A stretch of DNA of 35,076 nucleotides, taken from Gammaproteobacteria bacterium. Lineage in GTDB: Bacteria; Pseudomonadota; Gammaproteobacteria; JACCYU01. Location: the NCBI GenBank assembly GCA_013696315.1, contig JACCYU010000174.1, positions 1 to 35,076 of the forward strand, given 5' to 3'. The notes beneath the pieces are model-generated. The model made no database searches. It saw only the letters and a list, made by a program, of their open reading frames with translations, and had not been told where the DNA came from. Made by a program: the position numbers and the translations under genes. This document shows positions 7,458 through 33,065 of the stretch, in pieces. How positions within the stretch are numbered: the stretch's first letter is position 1; each line of letters begins with the position of its first letter.

Positions 7458-8060
7458 TCACGTCGCCAGCCGCGCCTCCAGCGCGGCGTGTTCCTCCGGC
7501 GTATTGACGTTCAGGAACGCATCCGGGCAATCGGTAAAGTCGGCGGTCGCCACGCGGTGCAGGCGATACCAGCGATCGATCTTGCGCTCGCCCGTTTGCA
7601 GATAGTCGTAAAGGCTAAGCAGCAAGGCGCGTTTGAGCATCGAGAATACCGGTTGTAAGCGAAGCGAATCGCGGGCCACGGCGATCTCGGCGTCGTCGCG
7701 CGAAAGCGCCGCCCACAGGCGCGCGCCCAGATCGTGCGGCAACAGCGGACTGTCGCAGGGTGCGGTAACGGCATAGCGGGTGTCGATTTGCGACAACGCG
7801 CTCGCGATGCCCGCCAGCGGCCCCTGAAAATCTTGCGTCCTGTCCGCTATCACCGGCCAGCCATAGCGCCCGTAGCGCTCCAGATTGCGATTGGCGTTGA
7901 TGACGACGGCGCCGACCTGTGGTTCGAAGCGCGCGAGCACCCGTTCGATCATCGGGAGCCCGCTAATCTCGATGAGTCCCTTGTCCTTGCCGCCCATGCG
8001 GGTGGCGCGTCCGCCCGCCAGAATGACGCCGGTGATGTCGTCGCGGGGGTACGGGGGCAT
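7458..8060 (-). CDS. mobA: Molybdenum cofactor guanylyltransferase MobA
   Basis: This 200-residue nucleotidyltransferase attaches GMP to molybdopterin to make the MGD cofactor of DMSO-reductase-type enzymes. The N-terminal GTP-binding signature GVILAGGRATRMGGKDKGL covers residues 11-29. Further conserved pieces are INANRNLERYG, GPLAGIASAL and APCDSPLLP (metal-binding Asp). It ends NVNTPEEHAALEARL, as in most MobA proteins. It lies 161 bases downstream of ndh on the same strand and apart from the moaB/moaE/moeA group 6 kb away. The ATG at 8060 has only a poor binding site. No mobB follows. Confidence 0.93.
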   Translation of the reverse strand: MPPYPRDDITGVILAGGRATRMGGKDKGLIEISGLPMIERVLARFEPQVGAVVINANRNLERYGRYGWPVIADRTQDFQGPLAGIASALSQIDTRYAVTAPCDSPLLPHDLGARLWAALSRDDAEIAVARDSLRLQPVFSMLKRALLLSLYDYLQTGERKIDRWYRLHRVATADFTDCPDAFLNVNTPEEHAALEARLAT

Positions 8061-9717: not shown

Positions 9718-10029
9718 ATGAAAACCAGTTTGAACATCGACCCTGGCGACCGCACCGAAATCGAGGCGGCGGTTTTCCGCCGGCTGATTGAACACCTGCG
9801 CGCCCGTCCGGAGGTTCAGAATATCGACTTAATGAATCTCGCGGATTTCTGCCGCAATTGTCTCGCCAAATGGTATCGCGCCGCCGCGCAGGACAAAGGT
9901 ATCGAGATGGAATATGCCCAGGCCCGCGAGCTCGTCTACGGTATGGCTTACGACGAGTACAAGGCGAAATACCAGCGCGAGGCAACGGCCAAGCAGCAGG
10001 CCGATTTCGAGGCGCGGCAGCGCGACTAA
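9718..10029 (+). CDS. DUF1244 family protein
   Basis: This small cytosolic protein of 103 residues has no signal peptide. The central LMNLADFCRNCLAKWYRAAA with its two Cys residues, followed by YGMAYDEYKAKYQ, is the hallmark of DUF1244, a conserved proteobacterial family without an assigned function as far as I know. The start is supported by a GGAGG binding site 8 bases before the ATG. It probably shares a transcript with the methyltransferase gene 50 bases downstream. Confidence 0.85.
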   Translation: MKTSLNIDPGDRTEIEAAVFRRLIEHLRARPEVQNIDLMNLADFCRNCLAKWYRAAAQDKGIEMEYAQARELVYGMAYDEYKAKYQREATAKQQADFEARQRD

Positions 10030-11002: not shown

Positions 11003-12385
11003 ATGATCGACATGCATCAGCTGAGAAATTGCTACCAGCGGCTGGTGTGGAATACCGATACGGACGACGTGCCATGGTGGCAGGGGCTTGGCGTAAAAGC
11101 CGTGCGGCTGGTGCATGTGCTGGTGCGCGACATGGTCGATGGTCAGCTGACCCTGCGCGCGATGAGTCTGGTGTTCACGACCCTGCTGTCCATCGTGCCG
11201 CTGCTGGCGGTGAGTTTCTCGGTGCTCAAGGCGTTCGGCATGCACAACGAGCTGCAGCCGCTGCTGCGGAATTTTCTCGCGCCGCTCGGTCCGCGAGGCG
11301 CGGATATCAGCAATCAGATTATCGATTTCGTGGACAACATCGAGGTCGGCGTGCTGGGCGCGGTGGGCATTGCGTTTCTTTTCTATACGACCATCACGCT
11401 GATCCAGAAGGTCGAAGAGGCTTTCAATTACATCTGGCACATCGAGCGCTCGCGCACCCTGGCGCAGCAGTTCAGCAGTTATTTGAGCGTCATCATGGTG
11501 GTGCCGGTGCTGGTCATCGCCGCACTGGGCGTAACCGCGTCGTTGACCAGCAGCACGATCGTACAGGCGATCGTGGCCGTCGAGCCACTGGGCAGCCTGT
11601 ACGAGTTCGCCAGCCGGCTGGTGCCGTATCTGCTGATCATCGCGGCGTTCGTGTTTATTTATATATTCATCCCCAATACGCGCGTGCGGCCGATGGCGGC
11701 CATTACAGGCGGCGTGGTGGCGGGCGTGCTATGGCAGACCACCGGCTGGATCTTCGCGCAATTCATCGCCAAATCGGCGAGCTACGCCGCAATTAATTCG
11801 GGTTTCGCGATCCTTGTCGTGCTGATGATCTGGATTTACTGGAACTGGCTGATCCTGCTGGTCGGCGCCAGTATCGTGTTTTACCAGCAACATGCGGAGT
11901 ATCTGATGGCCGGGCGCAAGCAAATCCAGCCCAGCAACCGCGTACAGGAGGAACTGGCGCTGATGGTGATGGCGCTCATTGGCCAACGTTGGTATCAGCA
12001 GCGGCCTTGCTGGAGCGCGGACGAACTCGTCGAGCACCTGCATATGCCGTTCCCGGTCATCCAGGAGACGCTGAACGTGCTGGAGGAGGGCGGCTTGTTG
12101 TGCCAGACCACGGATACGCCATCGCTGTGGCTGCCTGCGTTACCACTGGAAACTACACCGATCAAGCAGGTCTTGGATGTGGTGCGAGACGCCAGCGACG
12201 GTGGTGACCTGGCGCCCCGGCGCGCGCCCGATCTGCGCGCCACGCGTGACATCGTGGCGGAAGTCGAACACGCGGTGACCGAAACATTACATGGGCGCAC
12301 GCTCAAGGATCTGGTCGCGGACAGCGAAAAATCGGCCGCGCGCCTGAACGCGATCGCGCCCGAATCCGCGGAATCCGCAAATTGA
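11003..12385 (+). CDS. YihY/UPF0761 family inner-membrane protein with cytosolic C-terminal extension
   Basis: This is a 460-residue protein. Residues 40-290 carry about six membrane helices with features of the YihY family (once mis-annotated as RNase BN): LRAMSLVFTTLLSIVPLLA, a central FLFYTTITLIQKVEEAFNYIW, a FIYIFIPNTRVRP loop and the end YWNWLILLVGASIVFYQQ. The exact function of the family is not established. From about residue 310 a soluble tail follows. The first part (EELALMVMALIGQRW, then LVEHLHMPFPVIQETLNVLEEGGLL) has the helix-helix-wing pattern of a winged-helix fold. The last 60 residues are charged and probably loose. The ATG at 11003 lacks a strong binding site; ATG 11012 is an alternative. 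Confidence 0.85.
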   Translation: MIDMHQLRNCYQRLVWNTDTDDVPWWQGLGVKAVRLVHVLVRDMVDGQLTLRAMSLVFTTLLSIVPLLAVSFSVLKAFGMHNELQPLLRNFLAPLGPRGADISNQIIDFVDNIEVGVLGAVGIAFLFYTTITLIQKVEEAFNYIWHIERSRTLAQQFSSYLSVIMVVPVLVIAALGVTASLTSSTIVQAIVAVEPLGSLYEFASRLVPYLLIIAAFVFIYIFIPNTRVRPMAAITGGVVAGVLWQTTGWIFAQFIAKSASYAAINSGFAILVVLMIWIYWNWLILLVGASIVFYQQHAEYLMAGRKQIQPSNRVQEELALMVMALIGQRWYQQRPCWSADELVEHLHMPFPVIQETLNVLEEGGLLCQTTDTPSLWLPALPLETTPIKQVLDVVRDASDGGDLAPRRAPDLRATRDIVAEVEHAVTETLHGRTLKDLVADSEKSAARLNAIAPESAESAN

Positions 12386-12428
12386 TGGGCATCCACCCAA
12401 GTTGCTTTAGCCAGCCCCTCGGTAGCGC

Positions 12429-13157
12429 ATGCCGCGAGCGGTGAGGCTCGTGTTGTCGATCGGTATGTCACTGCTCGCCGCTGGTGTGCTGCTGGAGGGC
12501 GGTTTAATCGGGCTGCGGGTCAGTGAAGCCCTGACCGGGGCGGAGGATTCGAAAGCTTTTCAGCTGCTTCAGTCGCCGGCCGCGGCGCGGATTCTGATGG
12601 TCGGCGACGACGCCGGGGTCGGCTCCGGGGTCGCCTTGTCGTCCGCATCCGTTGCGGGGCGGATCGCGCAGCGGTATCCGTGTGTCAGCATTGTCAACCG
12701 CGCGCGTGACGGCGCCACCGTGCGGGATGTCGCGGCGCAGATCGATGGGACCGGCGACACGCATTTCGATCTGCTGCTGGTGTTGGCGGGTGCGAACGAC
12801 GTGCTGCGTTTTGTCAGTGATGAGGAAACGGCGCGCGCCGCCAGGGCGATGCTGGCAATAGCCGGAGCGCGTGCCAGGCATGTCGTATTTCTGAACTCAT
12901 CCCGGCTTGAGAGCCGCTTGCTGCCGCCGCCACTGGGCCCATGGTATCAACGGCGCGCATTGGAAAAAGCCCGCGTGCTGAGTCAGGTGTCAAGGGCGGC
13001 CGGCGTCGAGTATGTGGATGCGCCTATGGATGGATCCGCACTAACGGCCGCAAACGTATGGTGGCCGGCGCGTCTGCACGCGGACGACGACACTTATGCG
13101 CGGTGGTTTCGGTTGCTCATGGGCAAGTCGCGAGTCGCGCCCCTTCTTCAGTGCTGA
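12429..13157 (+). CDS. SGNH/GDSL-hydrolase-like protein with altered catalytic residues
   Basis: This is a 242-residue protein with an N-terminal membrane or signal helix (residues 5-30). Block I reads ILMVGDDAGVGSG (residues 55-67), so the usual GDS nucleophile is an Asp at position 61. Block II keeps the Gly (NRARDGAT) and block III keeps the Gly-x-Asn-Asp pattern (LAGAND). In block V His217 is present (PARLHADDDTYARWF), but the residue three before it, normally the catalytic Asp, is Ala214. Two of the three catalytic residues therefore differ, which suggests an inactive or repurposed fold. The family placement is mine and is moderately sure. It lies 43 bases after the YihY gene and may be co-transcribed. 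It is convergent with the M48 protease. Confidence 0.65.
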   Translation: MPRAVRLVLSIGMSLLAAGVLLEGGLIGLRVSEALTGAEDSKAFQLLQSPAAARILMVGDDAGVGSGVALSSASVAGRIAQRYPCVSIVNRARDGATVRDVAAQIDGTGDTHFDLLLVLAGANDVLRFVSDEETARAARAMLAIAGARARHVVFLNSSRLESRLLPPPLGPWYQRRALEKARVLSQVSRAAGVEYVDAPMDGSALTAANVWWPARLHADDDTYARWFRLLMGKSRVAPLLQC

Positions 13158-13186
13158 TCAACTGGGATTGTTTCTCGCACCATCCA

Positions 13187-13972
13187 TCATCCGCAGGCCG
13201 GCGTTTCACCACGGGCCTGGGCCTGGCTGTAGAGCTTCAGCGCATCTGGCATGCGTTCGGTGAGGTTTTCGATGCGCGTCTCGTGCGACGGATGCGTGGA
13301 CATGAATTCCGGTGGTTGCTCGCCCCCACCTGCCTTGGCCATGTTCTGCCACAGTGGCACGCTCTGGCGCGGATCGAAGCCGGCGCTCGCCATCAGGTCC
13401 AGCCCCAGCAGATCGGCCTCGCTTTCCTGCGAGCGGCCGTATGGGAGCAGAATGCCGACCTGCGCGCCCAGGCCCAGCAGCCCGAGTAACTGCGCCGGCT
13501 CTCCGCCCGAACTGGCGGCGTAGATCTGTGCGGCCGTCAGCCCGGCCTGCGTGACCACAGCCGCCGACATGCGGGCATTGCCGTGCTCCGCCAGCACATG
13601 CGCGACTTCGTGGCCAATTACGGTAGCGAGCTGATCCTGGCTCTCCGCGACTTCCAGCAGGCCGGTGTAAACGCCGATTTTGCCGCCGGGCAGCGCGAAG
13701 GCATTGACGGCCTTGTCCTCGAACACCTGCACTTCCCAGACCTGATCGGAGTCCAGCGCGCCCGTGATCGCATCGGCGACACACTCTACGTACTGGTTCA
13801 CTTGAGGGTCGGATTCCGACGGCGTTTCCTGCTTCATCTGCTGGAAGGCGCTGGCGCCCATCTCGCTCATCTGATCGTCCGGAAACAGTTGCAACTGTTT
13901 GTGGCCCAGCGGCGAGGTGGCGCAGGCCGTGAGCCAGGCCGTTATAAACGTAATCAGGCAACCGCGTATCAT
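13187..13972 (-). CDS. M48-family zinc metalloprotease, outer-membrane lipoprotein type (LoiP/YcaL-like)
   Basis: This is a 261-residue lipoprotein. The signal peptide ends in a lipobox LTAC with the acylated Cys at residue 17. The zinc site is HEVAH at 121-125 and the third ligand is probably Glu183 in SQESEADLLGLDLM. FALPGGKIGVYTGLL before the helix and the late STHPSHETRIENL are typical of periplasmic M48 peptidases such as LoiP and BepA. The residue after the Cys is Ala, which fits outer-membrane sorting. There is no TPR region, so it is closer to LoiP/YcaL than BepA. The start is supported by AAGGAG nine bases before the ATG. Likely role: envelope protein quality control. Confidence 0.92.
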   Translation of the reverse strand: MIRGCLITFITAWLTACATSPLGHKQLQLFPDDQMSEMGASAFQQMKQETPSESDPQVNQYVECVADAITGALDSDQVWEVQVFEDKAVNAFALPGGKIGVYTGLLEVAESQDQLATVIGHEVAHVLAEHGNARMSAAVVTQAGLTAAQIYAASSGGEPAQLLGLLGLGAQVGILLPYGRSQESEADLLGLDLMASAGFDPRQSVPLWQNMAKAGGGEQPPEFMSTHPSHETRIENLTERMPDALKLYSQAQARGETPACG

Positions 13973-14012: not shown

Positions 14013-14534
14013 TCAGCACTCCCGCAGCCGCGGCATCAATTCCACCAGGTTACAGGGCCGGGTGCGGTAATCGAGCTGATGCACGATCAATCGATCCCAG
14101 CCGTCCGCGCAAGCGCCCGATGATCCGGGCAGGCAGAAGATATACGTGCCGTTCGCTACTCCCGCGATGGCACGCGACTGCAGGGTGGACGTGCCGATGG
14201 TCTCGAAAGATAGCACCCGGAACATCTCGCCGAAGCCGTCGATTTCTTTGTCTAGCAAGGGTCGTACCGCTTCGGGCGTGCCGTCACGCCCGGTGATGCC
14301 GGTGCCGCCGGTCGTGAGAATCACCTGCGGGCCATCTTCCGCGATCCATCGGGACAGCGTCGCGCGAATGCCGTATTTGTCGTCCGGCACGATGGCCTTT
14401 TCATGCAGACGGTGGCCGCTATCCGTGAGGCGCGCCGCCAGCAGCTTGCCCGACTTGTCCGTATCCTCGACGCGGCTGTCCGAGACGGTCAACACGGCGA
14501 TATTCAGGGCAATGAAAGCCCGCGCATCCGCCAT
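14013..14534 (-). CDS. moaB: Molybdenum cofactor biosynthesis protein MoaB (MogA-like fold)
   Basis: This 173-residue protein has the MoaB/Mog fold. IAVLTVSDSR opens it and the molybdopterin-binding loop ILTTGGTGITGRDGTPEAV lies near residues 72-90. FEMFRVLSFETIGTSTLQSRA-type helices follow (read here from GEMFRVLSFE), then IFCLPGSSGACADGWDRLI. MoaB/MogA proteins adenylate molybdopterin before MoeA inserts molybdate. Length and motifs match MoaB. It is divergent from moaE and sits 2 kb from moeA, so the locus is a partial cofactor cluster. Confidence 0.93.
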   Translation of the reverse strand: MADARAFIALNIAVLTVSDSRVEDTDKSGKLLAARLTDSGHRLHEKAIVPDDKYGIRATLSRWIAEDGPQVILTTGGTGITGRDGTPEAVRPLLDKEIDGFGEMFRVLSFETIGTSTLQSRAIAGVANGTYIFCLPGSSGACADGWDRLIVHQLDYRTRPCNLVELMPRLREC

Positions 14535-14662
14535 CGCGATCAGTCCCGCGCCATAACCTGGTTTGCGTGCGCCATGACGATGAGCATAGCATTAACATTT
14601 GGATTCAAATAGCGGCGGCGCGGCGCCATCGATCCTATCCCGATTCGCCATGCCCTAGAAAT

Positions 14663-15097
14663 ATGAATATAGAAATTCGTCAAGCCCCTTTCGATCCGTG
14701 GGGTGCTGTCGCGCGCCATCAACTCTCGATGGAACAGGCGGGCAAATTCGGCGCCACCGCCGTGTTCGTCGGCAGCATGCGGGACTTCAACGAAGGCGCT
14801 CGTGTGACCTGGATGACCCTGGAACACTACGCGGCCATGACCGAAAAGCACCTGGCGCACCTCGCCGAACGGGCTATGGCGCGTTGGGACATAATCGACG
14901 TGCTGATTATCCATCGGGTCGGCGACGTGTATCCCGGCGATCCCATCGTGCTGGTCGCCACCTGGTCCGCGCACCGCGCCGCGGCTTATGACGCCAACCG
15001 CTTCATCATGGAAGAGCTGAAATCCACGGCGCCATTCTGGAAAAAGGAGACGCTGCGCGAGGGCAGCCGCTGGGTGGAGAGGAACACGCCGGGTTAG
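14663..15097 (+). CDS. moaE: Molybdopterin synthase catalytic subunit MoaE
   Basis: This is a 144-residue protein. GATAVFVGSMRDFNEGARV is the family's opening GAxxxFxGxVR motif. LEHYAAMTEKHL, then IIHRVGDVYPGDPIVLVAT and FIMEELKSTAPFWKKE contain the conserved Lys residues of the active site that receives sulfur from MoaD. The enzyme converts cPMP to molybdopterin. ATG 14663 gives the usual N-terminus; the frame is open 32 codons further, but those residues are not family-like. The binding site is weak. moaD, normally its direct neighbour, is not next to it. Confidence 0.93.
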   Translation: MNIEIRQAPFDPWGAVARHQLSMEQAGKFGATAVFVGSMRDFNEGARVTWMTLEHYAAMTEKHLAHLAERAMARWDIIDVLIIHRVGDVYPGDPIVLVATWSAHRAAAYDANRFIMEELKSTAPFWKKETLREGSRWVERNTPG

Positions 15098-15129
15098 GCA
15101 ATTGCGATTTCTGGAGGGCCCGCCCGGAC

Positions 15130-16410
15130 TCACACGAAATTCGAAAACGGCAGCACCTCGACCTCAGTGCCCGGTTCGATGTTGCCGCTTTCCATCGGCA
15201 AAAAGATAAAGCAATTGGCCGCGGCCATCGACGTCAAAACCCCGGAGCCCTGTGCGCCGGTCTTATGCACGGTTAGCTGCCCCTGGTGGTCGCGTTCCAT
15301 CATACCGCGCTGATATTCGACCCGTCCCGGGCGCTTTTTGAGTTTTGAACCGCACCGGATTTTGAGCGTCAGCGGCGGTGGCGGCGGTGCGCCCATGAGT
15401 TGCTGCAGGGCCGGCTGCACGAATACGTAAAACGTCACCATCACCGACACCGGGTTGCCGGGCAGCCCGAAAAACCAGGCTCCGGCATCATTATCGCCAA
15501 TGCGCCCGAAGGCGAGCGGCCGCCCCGGTTTCATGGCGATCTTCCAGAAACCGATCTGGCCCAGTTTGTCCAGGGTGCGCTTGACGAAATCGGCCTCTCC
15601 CATGGATACGCCCCCCGACGTGATCACCACGTCGGCGAGCCGCACGGCCTGCGCGAAGGCTTCTTCCAGGGCAAGCGGGTCATCGCGAACGACGCCCATA
15701 TCGATGATCTCCGCGCCCAGGCGTGTGAGCATCCCGTGCAAGGTGTAGCGGTTGCTGTCATACACGTCGCCCATCGTCAGCGGCTCGCCGATAGATTTGA
15801 GTTCGTCGCCGGTGGAGAAAAACGCGACGCGCAGGCGTCGCCGGGCCTTGACCTCGGCGATGCCCAGCGACGCCAGCAGACCCAGATGCGCCGGCAACAG
15901 TCGCTGGCCCACGGCGAGTACGCGCTCGTCGCGCGCGATATCCTCGCCCGCCGCGCGCACGTTCTGGCCGGGCTCGTTATCGGCGCCGATGCGGATAAAT
16001 TCGCCCCGGACTTCCGCGCGTTCGACGATCACCACGCTGTCCGCGCCGGCCGGCACGGGCGCGCCGGTCATGATGCGGACGCAGTCGCCTTCACCGCATT
16101 CACCTTGAAATGGCCGGCCGGCGAAGGCCGTGCCGATGATCGCCAGGCTACGCGCGCTGTCTGCCGGAATGTCCGCGCCCCGAATGGCGAAACCGTCCAT
16201 GGCCGAGTTGGTGTGGCCGGGCACGTCGATTTTCGAGTAAACGTCTTCGGCCAGTACGCGGCCCAGTGCGTCGCGCAAGTGTGCCTGCTCGAAACCGTCC
16301 ACCGGTCTCAGCTGCGTACGCACGCGCCTGACGGCCTCATCGACGGGCAGGGAATCGGGATCGTAATCGTCCTGACAGCTTACGGAAGTCTCAATGCGGT
16401 TCTGGCTCAT
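15130..16410 (-). CDS. moeA: Molybdopterin molybdotransferase MoeA
   Basis: This 426-residue enzyme inserts molybdate into adenylated molybdopterin. Seen in order: domain III near HTNSAMDGFAIRG (about residue 70), RIMTGAPVPAGADSVV, the Mog-like domain with FFSTGDEL, YDSNRYTLHGML, ITSGGVSMGEADFVK and FFGLPGNPVSVMVTF, and the beta-rich C-terminal domain ending GTEVEVLPF. A GTG at 16419 is an alternative start three codons earlier. I prefer ATG 16410 because the binding-site-like GGGTGA is better placed for it. It is convergent with moaE, with 32 bases between. Confidence 0.94.
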   Translation of the reverse strand: MSQNRIETSVSCQDDYDPDSLPVDEAVRRVRTQLRPVDGFEQAHLRDALGRVLAEDVYSKIDVPGHTNSAMDGFAIRGADIPADSARSLAIIGTAFAGRPFQGECGEGDCVRIMTGAPVPAGADSVVIVERAEVRGEFIRIGADNEPGQNVRAAGEDIARDERVLAVGQRLLPAHLGLLASLGIAEVKARRRLRVAFFSTGDELKSIGEPLTMGDVYDSNRYTLHGMLTRLGAEIIDMGVVRDDPLALEEAFAQAVRLADVVITSGGVSMGEADFVKRTLDKLGQIGFWKIAMKPGRPLAFGRIGDNDAGAWFFGLPGNPVSVMVTFYVFVQPALQQLMGAPPPPPLTLKIRCGSKLKKRPGRVEYQRGMMERDHQGQLTVHKTGAQGSGVLTSMAAANCFIFLPMESGNIEPGTEVEVLPFSNFV

Positions 16411-16558
16411 ACGCGTCACCCGGTGAGAGCGAAAGATCGCTATTCAACGTGAATTGTAGAGCGTTTTGGCAACCGTGTGTTCCAGACAAGACAAATGCCC
16501 ACCTGCGCCCGCCACTCTGATGTTAGCCAGCCCGGAGCCGTTGGCGTTACACTACTAA

Positions 16559-31523: not shown

Positions 31524-33065
31524 TCAGAATTTGTTCGCTTGCATAGCAAGGCGTCCCTGACGCGTGTAACCACCCAGCCGGGCCTGCATTGAGGCGGTAA
31601 CCTGCTGAAAGCGAGCTTTTTCTGTTTCAGGCAAGGGTTTGGCGGTCGGTAGCGCGACTGTCAGCGGATCCTGGTGCTCTCCGTTGATCCGAAATTCGTA
31701 ATGCAGATGAGGACCAGTCGCAAGGCCGGTCGAGCCGATGTAGCCTATAGTCTGTCCCTGCGCGACCCGTTGTCCGACACTAGTCCCGCTGGCAAAAGCC
31801 GACATGTGACCGTAAAGCGTGGTGTAGAGGCTGCCATGCCTGAGGATGATCGTGTTTCCGTAACCGCTGATGTAGCCCCGTTCCTCTAGCACCGCATCAC
31901 CGGTCGCTTTGATGGGCGTGCCAGTAGATGCAGCATAATCCACGCCCCGATGCGCACGGATCGTATTAAGAATCGGATGTCTTCGATTCAGGTCGAAGTG
32001 TGAGCTGATTCGGGCGACATCCACCGGTGTGCGCAGGAAAGGCCGGCGTACGCTCCGGCCTTCCGGCGTGTAAAAACCGGTATGCCCATTGGAATCGGTG
32101 TAACGTATCGCCCTGAAAACGCGACCCTGGCTGGTGAATTCCGCGGCAACGATGTTGCCTGAGCCCACCGCTTGACCCTGGCGATAATGCTCATCATGCA
32201 CTACGGTGAATGTGTCACCTCTGCGAATGTCCAGAGCAAAGTCGATATCCCAGCCGAACAGTCCGGCCAGTTTCATGATCATTAAATCGGATAGACCGGC
32301 GTCATTTCCGTCCACGTATAGCGATCGGGATATGACACCGGAGGTGACGACGCGGCGCGGTTCCATTGCGCGATCATGTAGTTTCGCTTGCAGGTTGCCT
32401 TCGCTGGTTTTGATTACGCTAAGGCGCGTCGCGTAATCAGGGTCGAAAATGAGCTCTTCCATGCCGCGGTCGCCAATGCGCACGCGCAGCTTCTGGCCCG
32501 GATAGATTGAATCCAGGACTTCCGCTTCGCCGCCAAGGCGCATGATGCCATCCAATTCGTCGTAAATGTCCAAACGACTGAATATCGACGATAACGTATC
32601 TCCGATAGCGACCGTGATTCCATGCCATTCCCCGTTTGCCCTGCTCCGAGGTCTGGCGGCTGGACGAGCACCCGATATCGTTGTTTGCTGTTCAATGCCC
32701 GATTGCAAATCGCGCTTCGAAAACTCTCGATCGGGAGGGATCGACGAGGCGCCTGGAAGCGCCAATGGCAAATTGATGTGCGGCGCCGCCCGCGCGTTGT
32801 CGTACGCGAATGCCGTTGCCTGTACCTGATCCTGCTGCGGTACCATGAATCGGCCGCTGTTAGCCTTGGCAATTACAGCGCCGAGTACGAGCACGCTGAT
32901 TATAGGAATTAGCGATGGGCCGCGGAACGGATACGGCGTTACGCCATAGTCTGCAGCGAAAACGCGTAGTGCACTGCGTTTATAGTCAGCTTTTATGTAT
33001 GATCCGCGAGTCACTGGAATTCCAACGTTTTTTCGATGCAGGGAAGATAACGTCACCATGCCCAT
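31524..33065 (-). CDS. M23-family peptidoglycan DD-metallopeptidase (MepM-like)
   Basis: This is a 513-residue membrane-anchored peptidase. A single membrane helix (SLIPIISVLVLGAVIA) lies near residues 51-66. After a linker there is a LysM-like segment (ITVAIGDTLSSIFSRLDI to IYPGQKLRVRI) and an OapA-type middle domain. The C-terminal M23 domain carries the zinc site: His372 and Asp376 in HRGVDYA, and His453 and His455 in GPHLHYEF. It should cut peptide cross-links to allow cell-wall growth. The order with argC, erpA and tyrS is known from other gammaproteobacteria. The start is uncertain: ATG 33065 and ATG 33059 are both possible, and neither has a good binding site. Confidence 0.92.
   Translation of the reverse strand: MGMVTLSSLHRKNVGIPVTRGSYIKADYKRSALRVFAADYGVTPYPFRGPSLIPIISVLVLGAVIAKANSGRFMVPQQDQVQATAFAYDNARAAPHINLPLALPGASSIPPDREFSKRDLQSGIEQQTTISGARPAARPRSRANGEWHGITVAIGDTLSSIFSRLDIYDELDGIMRLGGEAEVLDSIYPGQKLRVRIGDRGMEELIFDPDYATRLSVIKTSEGNLQAKLHDRAMEPRRVVTSGVISRSLYVDGNDAGLSDLMIMKLAGLFGWDIDFALDIRRGDTFTVVHDEHYRQGQAVGSGNIVAAEFTSQGRVFRAIRYTDSNGHTGFYTPEGRSVRRPFLRTPVDVARISSHFDLNRRHPILNTIRAHRGVDYAASTGTPIKATGDAVLEERGYISGYGNTIILRHGSLYTTLYGHMSAFASGTSVGQRVAQGQTIGYIGSTGLATGPHLHYEFRINGEHQDPLTVALPTAKPLPETEKARFQQVTASMQARLGGYTRQGRLAMQANKF

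Follow-up and report, generated by a model that had tools for sequence, protein, structure and literature searches.

A gammaproteobacterial SGNH/GDSL-hydrolase homologue with altered catalytic residues is probably an esterase in decay

The window analyzed here, a stretch of 35,076 nucleotides from a gammaproteobacterial draft genome (G000), encodes a homologue of SGNH/GDSL hydrolases in which both the nucleophilic serine and the triad aspartate are replaced. This raises the question of whether the protein is an enzyme with altered chemistry, a non-catalytic protein kept for another role, or a gene that is being lost. We consider it probable that the gene is that of a decaying esterase, one that no longer catalyzes and that the cell can do without.

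The locus and its family assignment

The gene lies between two neighbors that it shares with the corresponding locus of G002, a genome from another genus of the same family; the same neighbors occur in G001, the only congener compared. The relevant features are as follows.

11003–12385, plus strand: YihY/BrkB-family membrane protein (PF03631, E 1.4e-48), common to G001 and G002
12429–13157, plus strand: SGNH/GDSL-hydrolase homologue with altered catalytic residues; complete ORF of 242 aa, ATG to TGA, with a PF13472 match
12438–12494, plus strand: most hydrophobic 19-residue stretch, residues 4–22 (Kyte-Doolittle mean 2.12)
12609–12611, plus strand: Asp61, codon GAC, where the catalytic Ser would stand (G002 has AGC, two bases apart)
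12711–12713, plus strand: Gly95, the oxyanion Gly of block II, retained; invariant alignment column
12795–12797, plus strand: Asn123, the oxyanion Asn of block III, retained (Lys in G002)
13065–13157, plus strand: 3' end of the gene, 93 bp from codon 213 to the stop; present in G001 as a relic of 86 bp (L013:2691-2776)
13068–13070, plus strand: Ala214, codon GCG, where the triad Asp would stand (G002 has GAC, and the relic in G001 has TGG)
13077–13079, plus strand: His217, the catalytic His, retained; invariant alignment column
13187–13972, minus strand: M48-family peptidase, common to G001 (94%) and G002 (75%)

The original prediction had proposed an SGNH fold, which profile searches bear out: PF13472 matches residues 63–224 with 57.7 bits (cut-off 32.9; E 2.8e-15), and PF00657 scores barely above its cut-off (23.8 versus 23.6 bits). 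Judged by these sequence scores, the family assignment is not due to chance. Searching solved structures with the SGNH profile yielded CrmE10 (7C23) and AlinE4 (7C82) as best matches; phmmer searches of PDB sequences with the window and G002 proteins gave nothing convincing, and no NCBIfam family matched the window protein at E ≤ 1. AlphaFold2 gave a poor model from the single sequence (pLDDT 45.6, pTM 0.40). Foldseek matches it at E ≤ 0.001 to 5jd3 (E 4.3e-6) and, at E 7.3e-6, to 4jj6. These two top matches, LAE5 and Axe2, are also matched by the SGNH profile and are followed by TesA entries, though the TM is about 0.4. The model, which is too poor to place side chains, lends weak support to the SGNH fold only. 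In line with the earlier proposal of a membrane-anchored protein, the N-terminus is hydrophobic, and residues 4–22 probably form a signal peptide or membrane anchor.

The location next to a YihY protein, which had been regarded as unusual, reflects local synteny: the YihY and M48 genes flank the gene in G002 as well, and there is no sign of joint function. The gap between the YihY gene and the SGNH gene measures 43 bp in the window (12386–12428) versus 319 bp in G002. In a consensus scan of positions 12300–13250, promoter-like sites were absent (0.1 expected) and terminator-like sites numbered three (0.8 in shuffles), which says nothing either way. Molybdenum cofactor genes are located close by (7458–8060 and 14013–16419), encoding a MobA-like NTP transferase, a molybdopterin-binding protein that we take to be of the MoaB type, MoaE, and MoeA. 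The window also contains a gene for a DUF1244 protein (9718–10029, E 6.5e-35) and, on the minus strand, one for an M23 peptidase with a Csd3_N2 domain (31524–33065), which adjoins a tyrosyl-tRNA-synthetase-like gene.

Catalytic residues in the window protein and its homologues

Blocks I, III, and V of the window protein read VGDDAGVGSG, GAND, and WWPARLHADDD. The residues named in the original prediction are correct at every position: Asp61, Ala214 three residues before His217, the oxyanion Gly and Asn, and His217 itself. Because the PF13472 match starts only at residue 63, the register of block I was taken from the syntenic ortholog in G002 (L002:1486-2229), the closest full-length ortholog identified (222 aligned columns, 46% identical). 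The two proteins align without gaps in block I (GDSTAVGTG in G002, GDDAGVGSG in the window) and from Pro213 onward (PDYLHPSSDGY and PARLHADDDTY, respectively). In this alignment, no Ser or Asp stands in for the triad residues, and the Asp residues nearest to the lost acid are 219–221, just past His217.

We aligned the window protein (P0001) with 12 further rows: the proteins of G002 (P0002), of genome G107 (P0003), and of a Comamonas antarctica plasmid (P0004), and L003, L004, L018–L023, and L032. Ser at position 61 and Asp at position 214 are found in 12/12 of the other rows and differ in the window protein only, which upholds the proposed loss of both the nucleophile and the triad acid. His217 is present in all 13 rows, and Asn123 in 11 of the 12 others, the exception being G002 with Lys. 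Outside the alignment, three ORFs (L024–L026) read GDS and DGFHP; three weak matches to the window protein (L005–L007) were likewise left outside. Without the serine, no acyl-enzyme can form by the classical route, and the window protein is therefore most likely catalytically dead; from its residues, classical catalysis with Ser and Asp both altered appears very unlikely.

An enzyme that is still active through altered chemistry, with Asp61 as nucleophile, His217, and one of Asp219–221 as the acid, is highly improbable, although an Asp occupies exactly the nucleophile position, the protein retains Gly95, Asn123, and His217, and Asp219 and Asp220 also occur in the G001 relic. Asp serves as nucleophile in the haloalkane dehalogenases, which take an aspartyl-ester route but have the unrelated alpha/beta-hydrolase fold. 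By this analogy, Ser would have changed to Asp, the acid would have moved from 214 to 219–221, and an aspartyl ester would be formed and hydrolyzed, a sequence of events that we find hardly credible. An Asp at the nucleophile position occurs in 0/12 aligned rows and 0/3 of the further ORFs, Pro218, Gly222, and other conserved positions are lost too, and the gene is deleted in the congener.

Conservation of Asp61 across orthologs had been proposed as a sign of repurposing. In this small test, such conservation finds no support: the G002 ortholog has Ser, and the gene is deleted in G001. Conserved repurposing across the family is rejected, since G002 retains both Ser and Asp, in the motifs GDS and DxxH (DYLH). 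Block III of the G002 ortholog reads GAKD, with the oxyanion Asn changed to Lys while Ser and Asp remain; each of the three family members compared departs from the canonical SGNH set in a different way. Other family copies were considered as possible stand-ins for the ortholog: PF13472 matches number six in G000 (window gene included), five in G001 (one below the cut-off), and six in G002. By our own motif reading of four of the five other G000 loci, three have GDS and DxxHP and one has GASD and DGFHP. We also read FGASD in place of FGDS, with Ser kept, in another GDSL-type protein of the genus (L043 in G000:C13 and L037 in G001:C153).

The genomes searched comprised draws of 56 relatives, 369 members of the class, and 398 members of the phylum, each including the window's own genome. 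The G002 protein matches 5/369 genomes at E ≤ 1e-10 and 9/398 at E ≤ 1e-8, and the Comamonas protein matches 4/369 at 1e-12 and 2/398 at 1e-14; within these draws, close relatives thus prove scarce. A genome-contig scan with the protein alone gave one locus, L008, which was rejected, as we read the matching frame as dehydrogenase-like, not SGNH. Among 72,556 plasmid records, five match the G002 protein and one the window protein, with most of the query covered only in the Comamonas record, and viral contigs contained no match to the G002 protein. Within the taxonomic order of G107, the G107 protein matched one of 47 genomes, G107 itself.

Deletion in the congener and pace of change

G001 contains no match to the window protein, although its M48 neighbor is 94% identical. 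Only 136 bp separate the YihY gene from the M48 gene in G001, versus 801 bp in the window, and this short gap holds the relic of the 3' end, which aligns with a local score of 67 (≤ 17.5 in 200 shuffles); a gap of 7 bases in the alignment puts it out of frame. The gene has therefore been deleted in G001. Homology between the 5' side of this gap and the gap 5' of the window gene is no more than suggestive, with 133/2000 shuffles scoring as well.

The relic also bears on the order of the losses. Codon 214 has G in the third position in both members of the genus, and no Asp codon ends in this way, so the triad Asp appears to have gone earlier than their split. A neutral three-tip model, with tips of 0.12–0.21 substitutions per site, gives an ancestral C or T at this position 0.4–2.8%, a value that selection for Asp until the split would raise. 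This suggests that the triad Asp was already lost in the ancestor of the genus, which may have had a Glu codon there. Codon 222 points in the same direction: it is ACT in the window and ATT in G001, whereas G002 has GGC, for Gly. The relic retains Pro at position 218, so that this residue was lost later in the window lineage. The codon for Ser61 is absent from the relic, and the nucleophile may have been lost before or after the split.

A sequencing or assembly error had to be weighed as well, given a draft assembly of 280 contigs with 1.66% contamination. Its probability is minute, and we reject it: each of the two triad codons is two bases from its G002 counterpart, 21 conserved positions are lost in all while the frame has no frameshift, and codon 214 is non-Asp in the separate G001 assembly too.

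Compared with its ortholog, the window gene has evolved faster. Among positions conserved in three other close homologues, the window protein has lost 21/66 and the G002 protein 10/55, and their branch lengths are 0.86 and 0.51. Between window and G002, dN/dS is 0.41 for the gene and 0.10–0.21 for the four neighboring genes compared, ratios that are rough at dS values of 1.30 for the gene (near saturation) and 0.81–1.36 over five genes. This faster evolution supports decay, as do the loss of Ser61 and Asp214 in the window protein only, the intact GDS and DYLH motifs of the G002 ortholog in the same neighborhood, and the congener's retention of no more than a 3' relic.

Some features speak against decay. 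Uniform decay would not favor the active site, yet the losses in the window protein are clustered along the sequence (p 0.018), with 9/18 in blocks I and V (p 0.052) and 0/10 in blocks II and III; the losses in G002 are not clustered (p 0.89), and 1/10 falls in blocks I and V (p 0.89). As the block limits and the tests were chosen after viewing the alignment, this is modest evidence. The core is well preserved, with 40/60 residues identical to G002 over positions 61–120. Nor is the window protein the most deviant row: in a leave-one-out comparison at near-invariant columns it deviates at 4/17, versus 6/20 for the distant row L003, none of the latter in the triad. Finally, all 242 codons stand in an unbroken frame. 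Synonymous distances between window and G001 in five neighboring genes are 0.31–0.43, taken as approximately 0.17 per lineage. In neutral simulations at 0.17 substitutions per site, 102/1500 and 113/1500 copies (two runs) remained without early stops, and 0/1500 and 1/1500 (two assumed indel rates) were also free of frameshifting indels. Constraint on the frame has thus probably persisted during at least part of the period since the split from G001.

A rival reading is a pseudoenzyme retained in the genus, with an SGNH fold that no longer catalyzes and that selection keeps because it binds a ligand or partner, either at the membrane or in the periplasm. The open frame against neutral expectation, the clustering of losses, and a dN/dS below 1 are in its favor, and, with the triad Asp probably gone before the split from G001, the protein outlasted that loss. 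We nevertheless regard this reading as rather unlikely. The gene is deleted in the only congener compared, Asp61 is found in a single genome, conserved residues are also lost beyond blocks I and V (Gly158, Asn159, and others), and the dN/dS value rests on a dS near saturation.

Decay would have started from a normal SGNH (GDSL-2) esterase, either exported or anchored in the membrane. As the relic suggests, the triad Asp would have been lost first, in the window's genus, and nearly all of the gene would then have been deleted in the sister species. In the window lineage, Ser is now Asp, whether it changed before or after the split, and more of the conserved active-site residues have been altered. 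The window gene would now be under relaxed constraint and dispensable, its frame open only since decay has not yet broken it.

Comparison with known SGNH proteins

The locus offers a small, clear case of GDSL esterase loss, with both triad residues in the sister genus, a relic in the congener, and an altered open copy in the window. For annotators, it is a warning against inferring an esterase from a PF13472 score above the cut-off. Should selection be what keeps the frame open, the protein would be a bacterial SGNH pseudoenzyme.

With the enzymes of PF13472 (Lipase_GDSL_2; for example TesA, CrmE10, and AlinE4), the window protein shares the block order, Gly95, Asn123, and His217, but it has Asp for the Ser nucleophile and Ala for the triad Asp. 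A GDSL-type esterase/lipase of Comamonas antarctica (WP_175506392.1) and the G107 homologue group with the window and G002 proteins in a midpoint-rooted tree (98/97). Both are similar to the window protein in length and likewise have a hydrophobic N-terminus, but they read GDSTGVGTG, GGND, and DGLHPS and lie in other neighborhoods. The CE2-type SGNH esterases keep the Ser nucleophile, unlike the window protein. They resemble it in block V, where, according to PMC9487903, many of these catalytic-dyad enzymes are without the Asp.

Loss of activity after changes at these positions is documented in PMC7294632: S29A, D178A, and H181A variants of CrmE10 are each without activity, and AlinE4 with Ala for Ser, Asp, or His retains nearly none. 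Among the matches listed, the open-licence literature includes no description of a bacterial SGNH protein whose nucleophile position holds Asp, a weak negative. Plants are already known to have GDSL/SGNH pseudoenzymes. In Arabidopsis At1g54030 (ERMO3/MVP1/GOLD36), as described in PMC4757993, the block I Ser is changed to Gly, and the protein is without lipase activity and is described as a pseudoenzyme. Like the window protein, it is a GDSL protein without the block I Ser; unlike it, At1g54030 comes from a plant and has had a cellular role reported for it, whereas the window gene has been lost in its congener. With both residues present in a sister genus and almost the whole gene deleted in a closer relative, the window protein looks like an enzyme that one lineage is discarding, not like a novel type of protein.
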